Shown one piece after another: positions 40,388 to 44,332 of a stretch of DNA of 64,000 nt. Source of the DNA: Malaciobacter marinus (GTDB lineage: Bacteria; Campylobacterota; Campylobacteria; Campylobacterales; Arcobacteraceae); NCBI RefSeq assembly GCF_003544855.1, contig NZ_CP032101.1, positions 2,666,001 through 2,730,000 of the forward strand, written 5' to 3'. Within the stretch, counting starts at the first letter, position 1, and every line of letters starts with the position of its first letter. The notes under the pieces are model-generated. The model was not told the DNA's origin, did no database searches, and worked only from the letters and a program-made list of their open reading frames with translations. A program made the translations under genes and the position numbers.

Positions 40388-40615
40388 TTATGCTTTTTTC
40401 TCTTGACTTACTTTTTGTAATACTTCAATTACTTCATCAAGACTTCCATAAGGAATATGAGATTTCCATTCAATATCTTTGCCATTTAAAGCAATACCAA
40501 TACTTACCACATCTGAAGTCTCTTTTCCATATGGCTCAGTAATATTTGAAATAATTATCTTACCTTTTTTTGTTCCTGATAATTGAAGTGTTGCAATTTC
40601 CGTAGTTGTTGACAT
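40388..40615 (-). CDS. Small conserved-looking hypothetical protein
   Basis: Protein of 75 aa, no signal peptide or membrane helix, no Cys. The sequence (ATLQLSGTKKGKIIISNI early, IPYGSLDEVIEVLQKVSQ late) suggests a short beta sheet plus a C-terminal helix. It has its own strong terminator and an ATG preceded by an AGGAATAG-type site (AAAAAGGAATAGAT), so it is likely a real gene. Not recognised. Confidence 0.65.
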   Translation of the reverse strand: MSTTTEIATLQLSGTKKGKIIISNITEPYGKETSDVVSIGIALNGKDIEWKSHIPYGSLDEVIEVLQKVSQEKKA

Positions 40616-40716: not shown

Positions 40717-41523
40717 TTATTTTAGTGTTCCTATTTTTTGTCCATATTTTACTTTTTGATTTAGTAATTCTTCTAATTCAACACTATCTTTTTCCCAAAC
40801 CATAACAACAGTTGATCCCATTTTAAAGTAACCCAATGTTTGACCTTTTTTTACTTTTAAATCGTCATATTTAATTACTTTTATATCTTTTGCATTAGTA
40901 TTTGTTTCTACACTTGGTTCAAAATCAAATACCATTTGCCCTACATTTAAAGCTCCAACAAAAACCATATAAAAAATTTTATTATCTGAAAAACACTCTA
41001 AAATCACTCTTTCATTTTGAACAAATAAATCAAGTTCTTTATTTAAGTATTTTAAATTAACAGGATAAAGCTTTCCTGGAACATGAATAAGTTTTTTAAT
41101 TTCACAATCAATAGGTGCATGATACCTATGATAATCACTTGGAGCAAGATAAAAATTCATATATTTTCCATCTTTTACCATAGGGAAAGTATCAGTACAA
41201 TAATAAGTAAGTAAATCTTCAACAGAATATTCCATACCTTTTATTTGAAAAAGAGTCTCTTTATGTAAACTCCCTGATTGTGTAATAAAACTATCAGAAG
41301 GAGAGATAAAACTATTTTCATCTTCATTAATTTCTCTTGGGATTGCCAATTCTCTTGTAAATAAATCAGTTAAAGACTTATAATACTTAGCATTTCTAAA
41401 TTCGCTCATATCAATTTTAAAAATTTTAACATATGTATTGTTAATAAATTTTTGAAAAAATGAGGGGAACTCTTTCTTGGCAAACTTTCCAAAATATTGC
41501 GAGATCAAGTTTGTAATGTGCAT
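40717..41523 (-). CDS. psd: Phosphatidylserine decarboxylase
   Basis: Proenzyme of 268 aa making phosphatidylethanolamine at the inner membrane. The self-cleavage site is FKMGSTVVMVW (Gly-Ser at about 236-237), a variant of the LGST consensus with Met for Leu, which yields the pyruvoyl cofactor on the short alpha chain. Also seen: SDSFITQSGSL, and LAPSDYHRYHAPIDCEI (about 125-141) with the conserved His residues. Standard length; ATG at 41523. Confidence 0.95.
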   Translation of the reverse strand: MHITNLISQYFGKFAKKEFPSFFQKFINNTYVKIFKIDMSEFRNAKYYKSLTDLFTRELAIPREINEDENSFISPSDSFITQSGSLHKETLFQIKGMEYSVEDLLTYYCTDTFPMVKDGKYMNFYLAPSDYHRYHAPIDCEIKKLIHVPGKLYPVNLKYLNKELDLFVQNERVILECFSDNKIFYMVFVGALNVGQMVFDFEPSVETNTNAKDIKVIKYDDLKVKKGQTLGYFKMGSTVVMVWEKDSVELEELLNQKVKYGQKIGTLK

Positions 41524-41680: not shown

Positions 41681-41920
41681 ATGCATAAAATCGTAGTAGC
41701 AAATCAATGTGGTTGTTTTAAAAGAAGTGACCTTGAGAATAATATCAGTTTTACTTCAAAAGATGATGCTCTTTTAAAAGCAATACAAATGAAAGAAAAA
41801 ATGAATGAAGAGTTCTGTGGAAAACATGAGTTTCAAGTTGAAGAGATGCAAAATAATTTTGTTATTTCATTTTTTACTCCTAAAAAATCTTCATGTTGCG
41901 GAGATGGATGTTGTAGCTAA
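41681..41920 (+). CDS. Small Cys-rich protein upstream of a Gate-domain permease
   Basis: Protein of 79 aa, soluble, with NQCGCFKRSDL at residues 8-18, a single Cys at about 47, and the tail KKSSCCGDGCCS, giving seven Cys in all. The paired Cys motifs suggest binding of a soft metal or an iron-sulfur cluster. ATG with AAGGAAAAG upstream. The permease gene begins 72 bp downstream on the same strand, separated by a strong hairpin, so the pair may form an operon with unequal expression. Not recognised as a known family; function unknown. Confidence 0.7.
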   Translation: MHKIVVANQCGCFKRSDLENNISFTSKDDALLKAIQMKEKMNEEFCGKHEFQVEEMQNNFVISFFTPKKSSCCGDGCCS

Positions 41921-41933
41921 CAACTTCCATCTC
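41901..41933 (+). terminator. Hairpin over the end of the Cys-rich gene
   Basis: Arms GAGATGGA (41901-41908) and TCCATCTC (41926-41933), continued after one T-T mismatch by five further pairs, loop AGCTA. The stem includes the last codons and stop of the 79-aa gene. No T-run follows, so it may stabilise the upstream message or act as a partial terminator before the permease. Confidence 0.5.
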
Positions 41934-41992
41934 AACTTTGTATAAAATCTTACAAATTTAGATAAAATTATAAAAATCAAAAAAGAGTCTTT

Positions 41993-42886
41993 ATGAATTT
42001 AAAAAAAACTTTAAACTCCTCAATAAAAAGTATTTGGATTATACTAAAACTTGTTATACCAATTTATATACTTGCTGAAATACTGTTTTATTATAATACT
42101 TTAGCATATGTATCATTTTTAGTTGAACCATTTACTTCTATATTAGGTTTACCAAAAGAAGCAGCATTATCAATAATTAGTGGAATGTTTTTGAATCTTT
42201 ACGCAGCAGTTGCTTTTGCAGCTCCACTTGATATGAGCCCACAACAATGGACTGTTCTAGCAGTGTTTTTAGGTATTTGTCACTCTTTAGTAGTTGAAAG
42301 TGTGATTATGAAAAAAATTGGTTTATCAAACACTTACTCTTATCTTTTAAGATTTTTTGCAGGATTAATAGTTGCATATCTAACTACCTTTATTCCTGCT
42401 AGTTATTTTATGTCAAATATAAATATTGAAGCTTTTGAAGAAAAAAGTTATGATAGTTTAATATCTTTACTTCAAATTTCAGCATATAATGCCTTTATTT
42501 TGTCATTGAAAATTATTGCTTTAATTACTGCTTTAATTTTTATAATGGATTTTATAAAAACAAGAGATTTTATACAAAAAAGTGGGAAAAATATTAGTAA
42601 AAGTTTTTCAATCTTAGTTGGTGTATTTTTAGGAATAACATATGGAGCAGGTATATTAATAGAAGAAGCAAAAGGTACAAGTTTAAGTAAAAAAGACATC
42701 TTCTTTATTGGTACTTTTTTAATGATTTGTCATGCTATTATTGAAGATACTTTATTGTTTGTAATTTTTGGAGCTGATTTTACTATTATAATTGCTATTA
42801 GAACAGTAGCTGCAATAATTATTTCTTATGCAATGTTATATTTCTTTGATAAAAAATATTCTAAAACTACAAAGCAAAGTATTTAA
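41993..42886 (+). CDS. Nucleoside-recognition (Gate) domain permease
   Basis: Inner-membrane protein of 297 aa with eight or so hydrophobic helices, in two similar halves: KLVIPIYILAEILFYYNT with GISGMFLN-type segment ISGMFLNLYAAVAFAAP in the first, and GVFLGITYGAGILIEEAKG with GTFLMICHAIIEDTLLF in the second. This is the pattern of Gate/nucleoside-recognition proteins (PF07670), which include SpmA/B-like proteins and the core of FeoB. Despite the name, metals or other ions are possible substrates. It follows a Cys-rich small protein. It overlaps the mltA stop by 4 bp (convergent). Confidence 0.8.
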   Translation: MNLKKTLNSSIKSIWIILKLVIPIYILAEILFYYNTLAYVSFLVEPFTSILGLPKEAALSIISGMFLNLYAAVAFAAPLDMSPQQWTVLAVFLGICHSLVVESVIMKKIGLSNTYSYLLRFFAGLIVAYLTTFIPASYFMSNINIEAFEEKSYDSLISLLQISAYNAFILSLKIIALITALIFIMDFIKTRDFIQKSGKNISKSFSILVGVFLGITYGAGILIEEAKGTSLSKKDIFFIGTFLMICHAIIEDTLLFVIFGADFTIIIAIRTVAAIIISYAMLYFFDKKYSKTTKQSI

Positions 42887-43986
42887 TTTAATACTTGCTT
42901 TGGAATAAGAATATATAGTTTACCCTTTTCTTTCATTTTACCTGCATATTCAAATGCTTTATCACCAAATCCCCAAAAAAAGTCAGCTCTAATTTCCCCT
43001 TTAATTGCTCCACCAACATCAGCAGCAACCATTAATTTGTTTATATCCTCTTTTGTAACAGGGTTTGAAGTTGAAATGAATACTGGCATACCTAAAGGAA
43101 TATAACTTCTATCAACAGCAAGATTTCTTTTTGAAGTAAGTTCAACACCTAATGCTCCTGTTGCACCTTGTTTTGACTCTCTAAAAAATACATAACTTTC
43201 ATTATGATTTAAAATTTCATCTATTTTGTCTGGGTTTTTATCAAAATATGCTTTCATTCCTTGAATAGAAGCACTATTTCTATCAATAAATCCATTTTTT
43301 AACATATACTTTCCAACAGATTTATATCTTCTTCCATTTTGGTTTGCATAACCTACATTTAAAATTGTGCCATCTGTTAATTTTACTTTGCCAGAACCTT
43401 GTATATGAAGTAAAAAAAGTGCAAATTTATCATCAACATAACAAATAGGTTCTAAGTTCTCATTTGCATGCTTTTCAAGTTGGGCTCTATCTTCATATGG
43501 AACTAATTTATTTCCTTTTAATTTACCTCTTAATCTATACTTTTTAAGTTCTGGGTAAACATTACTTAAATCAACTGTGATCATATCTTTTGGAGTTTTA
43601 TAAATTGGATATTTATAAGTATCATCTTTTGTTAAACTTCCATGAAGTAATGGCTCATAATAACCAGTTATTACACCCTCATCACTTCCTTTATTATCTA
43701 TTAGTTTATAAGCTTCAAAATTTGAGATAAAAAAGTCTCTTGCATTATTTTCATCATCTGCTTTTAAACAAACTTCTTTAAACATTTCATATCTTTTTGA
43801 ACGTGTACAAGCTTTTTTAAATACTTCAAATGCATAATCTAAATCATCATTATAAAAGTCTTCAATATCATAAAAATTGACTTTTTCTAAAGATGCCTTT
43901 GAGATATCATCATACTTTTGATACTCTTTTACAGAACACCCAGTAAATATATAAATAGTAATTATAAAAATTAGTAGTTGTCTCAA
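42883..43986 (-). CDS. mltA: Membrane-bound lytic murein transglycosylase A
   Basis: Lipoprotein of 367 aa from a TTG at 43986, which has AAAGGAG six bases upstream and opens directly into a lipoprotein signal (RQLLIFIITIYIFTGCS); an in-frame ATG at 44019 lies before that ribosome site and is rejected. The MltA domain is seen in VITGYYEPLLHGS (about 107-119), and the 3D domain with its catalytic Asp in LMVAADVGGAIKGEIRADFFWG near the C-terminus (split here: LMVAADVGGAI, RADFFWGFG). It cleaves peptidoglycan glycan strands to 1,6-anhydro ends. Confidence 0.93.
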   Translation of the reverse strand: MRQLLIFIITIYIFTGCSVKEYQKYDDISKASLEKVNFYDIEDFYNDDLDYAFEVFKKACTRSKRYEMFKEVCLKADDENNARDFFISNFEAYKLIDNKGSDEGVITGYYEPLLHGSLTKDDTYKYPIYKTPKDMITVDLSNVYPELKKYRLRGKLKGNKLVPYEDRAQLEKHANENLEPICYVDDKFALFLLHIQGSGKVKLTDGTILNVGYANQNGRRYKSVGKYMLKNGFIDRNSASIQGMKAYFDKNPDKIDEILNHNESYVFFRESKQGATGALGVELTSKRNLAVDRSYIPLGMPVFISTSNPVTKEDINKLMVAADVGGAIKGEIRADFFWGFGDKAFEYAGKMKEKGKLYILIPKQVLN

Positions 43987-44047
43987 AACTGCTCCTTTAA
44001 TTTTGCAGTATTTTAACATCTTAAAGTAAATGTTTTATTACAAAGAA

Positions 44048-44332
44048 TTATTGACCTTGAGGATGAACTTCTTTTAAGCCACAGTGTTTGCATCTATATT
44101 CAAACTCTATAACTCCTTGGCAGCCATGATTTTTCAAAACTCTTTTTGTAATAGCTTCATTTTTAAAAGTAGTATTAGTTTTCTCATCAAAGAATGTTCT
44201 TGATTTTTCCCCACAATTTGGGCACTCACCTGAGTTTAACTTTGATACTCGTTTATGTTTAGTTTTAAAGTAAAGTAATACAGAGAATATTACTAATAAA
44301 AAAGTAAGTAGTAGGAATATTAGTGTTTGCAT
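44048..44332 (-). CDS. Membrane-anchored zinc-ribbon protein
   Basis: Protein of 94 aa: one N-terminal membrane helix (about residues 3-22), then a Cys-rich domain with CPNCGEKS (about 38), a single Cys in NHGCQG and CKHCG (about 82), i.e. a rubredoxin-like or zinc-ribbon arrangement. The function is unknown. The ATG at 44332 abuts a perfect hairpin that contains the only ribosome-site-like sequence (AAGGGAAGG). It lies 46 bp behind dnaK on the same strand. Confidence 0.72.
   Translation of the reverse strand: MQTLIFLLLTFLLVIFSVLLYFKTKHKRVSKLNSGECPNCGEKSRTFFDEKTNTTFKNEAITKRVLKNHGCQGVIEFEYRCKHCGLKEVHPQGQ

Follow-up and report, generated by a model that had tools for sequence, protein, structure and literature searches.

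The 64,000-nucleotide stretch of DNA analyzed here (hereafter the window) comes from Malaciobacter marinus, whose genome is a single 2.92-Mb contig. In it, the gene of a 79-aa Cys-rich protein with NQCGCF and CCGDGCC motifs (hereafter SMALL) lies ahead of a collinear gene for a Gate-domain membrane protein (hereafter the permease), with 72 bp from the stop codon of the former to the start codon of the latter, exactly as the initial annotation of this locus had described. No promoter-like site was found in this gap in the window. The features discussed below are the following:

40,717–41,523, minus strand: phosphatidylserine decarboxylase gene (psd; PF02666), the conserved divergent neighbor of SMALL
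41,681–41,920, plus strand: SMALL, a separate gene flanked by the divergent psd and the mltA–dnaK side, in a conserved locus
41,708–41,716, plus strand: CxC motif of SMALL (C10, C12), putative metal ligands
41,816–41,827, plus strand: CxKH motif of SMALL (C46, H49), putative metal ligands
41,894–41,914, plus strand: CCGDGCC C-terminal tail of SMALL, optional in the family
41,901–41,933, plus strand: hairpin that includes the final codons of SMALL, interpreted as a degenerate terminator of that gene
41,993–42,886, plus strand: permease, a 297-aa Gate-domain (PF07670) membrane protein with a likely CNT-like elevator fold, read as an unrelated neighbor of SMALL
42,281–42,298, plus strand: HSLVVE, first-half motif of the permease (H97 and E102 invariant in 42/42 homologues)
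42,731–42,748, plus strand: HAIIED, second-half motif of the permease (H247, E251, and D252 invariant in 42/42 homologues)
42,883–44,019, minus strand: MltA-type lytic transglycosylase gene (mltA; PF03562, PF06725), sharing 4 bp with the 3′ end of the permease in the window

In relatives without the permease, mltA directly follows SMALL. Between mltA and dnaK, a 94-aa protein that begins with a hydrophobic stretch and weakly matches Zn_Ribbon_TF (44,048–44,332 in the window) recurs in Arcobacteraceae loci.

The SMALL protein family

SMALL returned no match in Pfam (E up to 1), NCBIfam, or PHROGs, and literature searches on the SMALL and permease families listed no paper on either. A search with the single small-protein sequence retrieved two relatives plus one sequence matching at the tail only. 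Of the relatives found, the closest with a species name came from Malaciobacter halophilus (L003; 87% identity for the small protein), and a Planctomycetaceae locus (L005) was dropped as a relative because its Cys tail alone matched. SMALL is near-universal in an Arcobacteraceae family sample (91 of 104 genomes), and it was matched in 113 of 397 genomes of a phylum sample, with 1–5 copies per genome where matched.

Residues C10, C12, C46, H49, and F51 are invariant in 91/91 distinct homologues, an invariance that is partly built in since these homologues were picked by a profile itself weighting invariant columns. All four putative ligands (C10, C12, C46, and H49) persist in homologues that share as little as 35% identity with the window protein. 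FCGKH (residues 45–49) constitutes a third motif, overlooked in the initial annotation and better conserved than the Cys tail, of which a CCG-like version occurs in 62 of the 91 homologues. In the AlphaFold2 model (pLDDT 81.6), the chain forms a strand, a short helix, a strand, a long helix, and two strands, followed by a low-confidence tail (pLDDT < 50 at residues 70–72 and 74–79). C10/C12 are located between the first two strands of the model and C46/H49 just past the long helix, a topology from which we infer that the two pairs share one end of the domain. We claim no fold relative for SMALL: structural matches were weak (best Foldseek E 0.29, best Z 5.1; protein L/G-like folds and EEHEE mini-proteins), and no credible relative emerged from a PDB sequence search (best E 0.68).

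The invariant CxC…CxKH set suggests a zinc or Fe–S site, and its conservation makes metal binding by SMALL plausible and a small zinc-binding (or Fe–S) domain protein the most likely identity. Specifically, the product would be a soluble domain of beta-beta-alpha-beta-beta topology in which C10, C12, C46, and H49 hold a single metal, most likely zinc, and the flexible Cys tail provides a second thiol or metal site. The protein would then serve intracellular metal binding or redox housekeeping, with no delivery to the permease.

Copies of SMALL occur in a variety of gene neighborhoods. Beside psd/mltA in Arcobacteraceae, the recurrent contexts were serS, nitrogenase, DabA, molybdopterin oxidoreductase, and QueH, the last four identified by Pfam on one member each and the remaining loci assigned by script clusters or resemblance. 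Two copies lie directly downstream of dabA, encoding an inorganic carbon transporter subunit (L159:5419–6171), and paired copies adjoining nitrogenase genes (L152, L157, and L232) have a counterpart in L235, where the gene set is similar and includes an alanine-dehydrogenase-like gene. A CDF cation exporter gene is found upstream of the serS-linked copy in L104, L107, L108, and L112, preceded by a CsoR-like metal repressor gene in L104 and L107; other copies sit near znuABC-like genes (L148) or two genes away from a CDF gene (L217). Overall, the 79 loci resolved into 41 distinct contexts in which a common partner was absent, and a shared function read from the neighbors of SMALL was rejected.

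These contexts also bear on whether SMALL might be an Fe–S protein (2Fe–2S, CDGSH-like) or a redox thiol protein in place of a zinc protein, an alternative that we consider rather unlikely. CDGSH-type proteins bind a 2Fe–2S cluster through three Cys and one His, and SMALL resembles them both in this ligand set (CxC…CxxH) and in its CxC start. Copies beside genes of nitrogenase (L152, L157, and L232), molybdopterin oxidoreductase (L143, L145, L146, and L149), and QueH (L155, L156, and L158) point in the same direction. However, the ligand spacing of SMALL (CxC, 33 residues, CxxH) is unlike that of CDGSH proteins, neither the zf-CDGSH motif nor any other Pfam family was matched by SMALL at E up to 1, and with 41 contexts among 79 loci the metalloenzyme neighbors may be due to chance. 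A broader proposal, possible although we would not bet on it, is that SMALL represents an undescribed 3Cys-1His metal or Fe–S family, seen so far in Campylobacterota only and reaching up to five paralogues per genome. Its subfamilies would serve metalloenzyme or carbon/nitrogen fixation loci (nitrogenase, DabA, and molybdopterin oxidoreductase), and some members would carry a Cys tail whose codons double as a terminator.

The hairpin at the end of SMALL

The initial annotation had placed a strong hairpin, with no T-run, between the two genes. Folding against shuffled sequences bore this out: the 100-nt hairpin segment reached −24.4 kcal/mol (z −5.1), 0/200 shuffles were as good, and no terminator-like T-run was found 3′ of the stem in the window. 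The codons for GDGCCS in the tail supply the 5′ arm, and the 3′ arm is found downstream of the stop.

The same arrangement is present in loci that do not include the permease, among them L083, L084, L085, L087, and L088, with z-scores of −3.6 to −6.5. Across loci with a CCG-like tail, 41 of 61 formed 8 or more pairs joining the end of the coding sequence to the sequence downstream. Of the 31 distinct loci whose tail reads GNGCC or GDGCC, 28 have a stem covering 9 or more of the 15 positions, counted from the minimum-energy fold and weak in some of them, and 21 of these reach −15 kcal/mol or stronger. Third-codon stem positions covary with their partners (A-T/T-A/G-C and T-A/C-G), and in some relatives (e.g., L033 and L092) the stem runs straight into a T-run. 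The hairpin is placed differently in L089, L094, L095, and L004, and L097 has none of note.

Since tail codons form the 5′ arm and compensatory changes are observed where no permease follows, the hairpin can be assigned to SMALL. We infer that it is SMALL’s own terminator, whose T-run decayed or was lost in the window; SMALL would be transcribed alone, its transcript ending at a hairpin built from its own tail codons. Given the collinear genes, the 72-bp gap, and the lack of a promoter-like site in this gap, transcription of SMALL in the window may continue into the permease.

Fold and neighbors of the permease

The permease had been described as a two-half Gate protein. Pfam recognized a single Gate domain (PF07670) at residues 15–109 (E 4.8 × 10−7, 30.6 bits for a cut-off of 29.6), and the second half was not seen by Pfam. 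When the halves were compared as profiles with hhalign, 84 columns aligned at 25% identity (E 8.2 × 10−4), with ICHSLVVES opposite ICHAIIEDT. This alignment supports an internal repeat, in line with a two-half protein, at a probability of only 24%. Beyond the His and acidic residues listed above, R120 and R270 are likewise invariant in 42/42 homologues, and position 246 is Cys in 35 of 42. The invariant H and E/D residues of both halves could also hold a metal.

A structural model of the permease (pLDDT 79.2, pTM 0.81) best matched the concentrative nucleoside transporter CNTnw (5l2a_C; Foldseek E 2.8 × 10−3, prob 1.00; Z 16.6, rmsd 4.4, 264 residues, 12% identity), followed by Pho90 (Z 14.9, where unrelated helical models can reach Z 13–14 according to the tool’s own warning), and TRAP and INDY carriers also matched. 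A PDB sequence search returned no relative. We consider a CNT-like elevator fold likely on the basis of this model, and any specificity read from it tentative. CNT transporters carry the Nucleos_tra2_N and Nucleos_tra2_C domains beside Gate. The permease resembles members of this family (CNTnw and vcCNT) in its elevator fold and Gate domain, but is shorter (297 aa compared to ~400 aa) and, in a Pfam scan up to E 1, matched only Gate and one chance family, i.e., neither of these CNT domains and no FeoB_N (PF02421). Among other Gate proteins, YjiH/YjiG and SpmA/SpmB are likewise small Gate-only membrane proteins, but they are separate half proteins, whereas the permease holds both halves in one chain. 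A yjiH mutation is listed in gallium-evolved cells (PMC13160365), an entry that is uninformative for the permease.

The initial annotation had further pointed to FeoB, a ferrous iron importer with a Gate-domain core and small accessory proteins, and proposed an uncharacterized metal (iron, copper, or zinc) transport or export unit with SMALL as metal donor or sensor. FeoB carries an N-terminal G domain and two Gate domains. The permease shares the Gate domain, but its chain lacks the G domain, CNT nucleoside transporters match it best in structure, and the genes around its relatives point to organic solutes, which speaks against the proposed unit. We also reject membership in the FeoB family: FeoB G domains were matched elsewhere in the genome, in two ORFs that also include Gate domains (C1:1935742, an 829-aa open frame, and C1:2270332, a 710-aa open frame), so that ferrous iron import need not rest on the permease.

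Candidate substrates come from the genes found next to permease homologues. An AraC gene lies beside the permease in 8 of the 42 loci with a permease called (L062, L065, L067, L068, L070, L071, L072, and L199). A further AraC gene is present in L200, for which our simple ORF-calling script gave no permease row, just as it gave no SMALL row for L086, L118, L119, and L153. Genes for a D-2-hydroxyacid dehydrogenase and for an FAA hydrolase each adjoin the permease in 4 loci. All six loci of family f5 (L202–L207) have ilvD within three genes of the permease, adjoining it in L206 and L207 and separated from it by one or two genes in the rest, a linkage that provides a lead to the substrate. Further neighbors include EamA, LysE, prephenate dehydratase, and an amino-acid type ABC transporter (SBP_bac_3). 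In a scan of 30 of the 43 permease loci (the 13 dropped being near-duplicates, members of the window genus, or L200, and neighbors <80 aa being set aside), the commonest Pfam families among 116 neighbor proteins were AraC HTH (7), thioredoxin-like (7), GGDEF (5), and FliP, transpeptidase, 2-Hacid_dh_C, and FAA_hydrolase (4 each), with the FliP and transpeptidase counts stemming from one shared site. The 25 commonest of the 102 neighbor families included no metal-transport family and no nucleoside gene.

Taken together, these neighbors favor an amino, keto, or hydroxy acid carrier, a substrate guessed with modest confidence from neighbors that vary. The permease would accordingly be an elevator-type secondary carrier with a CNT fold, transporting an organic solute, most likely one of these acids. 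That it carries a nucleoside or nucleobase has, in our view, a small chance of being right: concentrative nucleoside transporters are the best structural matches, and the Pfam name points the same way, yet the fold is common to other elevator carriers (Pho90, TRAP, and INDY), the CNT domains beyond Gate are unmatched, and nucleoside genes are absent from the 25 commonest neighbor families. The permease family would represent a compact two-half carrier with a CNT fold, for which recurring neighbors offer testable substrates.

Linkage and history of the pair

The permease was detected in 27 of the 104 family genomes (including one fragment, G098), and a hand tally of both match lists yielded 21 genomes with both genes. 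The two are adjacent in 3 of these 21, i.e., the window genome (G000), G078, and G080; all three belong to one genus, and their intergenic gaps measure 72, 92, and 82 bp, respectively. In three other genomes of the same genus (G079, G081, and G082), SMALL lies directly before a convergent mltA and a permease match is absent. Across the 397 genomes of the phylum sample, SMALL was found in 113, the permease in 38, and both in 15; in 18 genomes of family f10, the permease is present and SMALL not detectable. Fisher tests, run on hand tallies of match lists and ignoring the relatedness of genomes, indicated no co-occurrence either in the family (odds ratio 0.35, p 0.09) or in the phylum (odds ratio 1.74, p 0.13).

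Divergent psd adjoins 16 of the 20 SMALL loci fetched (L081–L085, L087–L096, and L100), and the locus differs from this arrangement in L097, L098, and L099. Within Arcobacteraceae, SMALL is an old member of the psd/mltA–dnaK–grpE–hrcA region, and a permease gene separating it from mltA is confined to part of one genus. A tree built from psd, DnaK, GrpE, and HrcA places G080 as the first branch in this genus, with the three permease-less genomes grouped inside (support 0.955 and 1.0). This topology is explained either by a permease in the genus ancestor followed by one loss, or by two gains at one site.

The conserved linkage in relatives that would accompany the metal-transport unit proposed by the initial annotation is thus absent: with adjacency confined to 3 of 21 co-occurring genomes in one genus and no co-occurrence, there is no general coupling of SMALL and the permease. 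On synteny, co-occurrence, and the hairpin, we reject a functional coupling of the two, and the neighbors of the permease likewise lend no support to a unit formed by both genes. Most likely, SMALL and the permease are chance neighbors.

Overall, we judge it probable that two independent genes have been juxtaposed, SMALL encoding a soluble metal protein and ending at its own terminator, and the permease being an organic-solute carrier of CNT fold. Some observations run counter to independence. The tree, as it reads, suggests that the genus ancestor already had the pair and that three species retained it, while the SMALL copies near metal genes (L104, L107, L108, L112, L148, and L217), the possible read-through, and the H and E/D residues of the permease could also reflect a connection. 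A lineage-specific metal-transport unit, in which the permease would have been recruited beside SMALL and SMALL would bind a metal and hand it to or from the permease, can draw on this persistence in three species with the gaps given above, on the invariant SMALL ligands, on the His and acidic residues of the permease core, and on a gap without an obvious promoter, but we regard it as very improbable given that SMALL is kept in three sister species from which the permease was lost or always absent, that the genes do not co-occur, that a hairpin stands between them, that permease neighbors elsewhere are organic-solute genes, and that the genome holds two FeoB-type ORFs. Reading the pair as independent genes removes an attractive but unsupported functional link, and the uncharacterized SMALL family is the interesting remainder once the unit falls.

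A phage or plasmid origin was also considered and rejected, with no PHROGs match for the window proteins, no phage match, one Sulfurovum plasmid match, and no viral contig relative. Finally, a 75–77-aa protein, with no Pfam match for its window copy, is encoded within a few genes of SMALL family members in two families of the phylum (40,388–40,615 in the window, L156:7205–7438, and L158:7238–7468).
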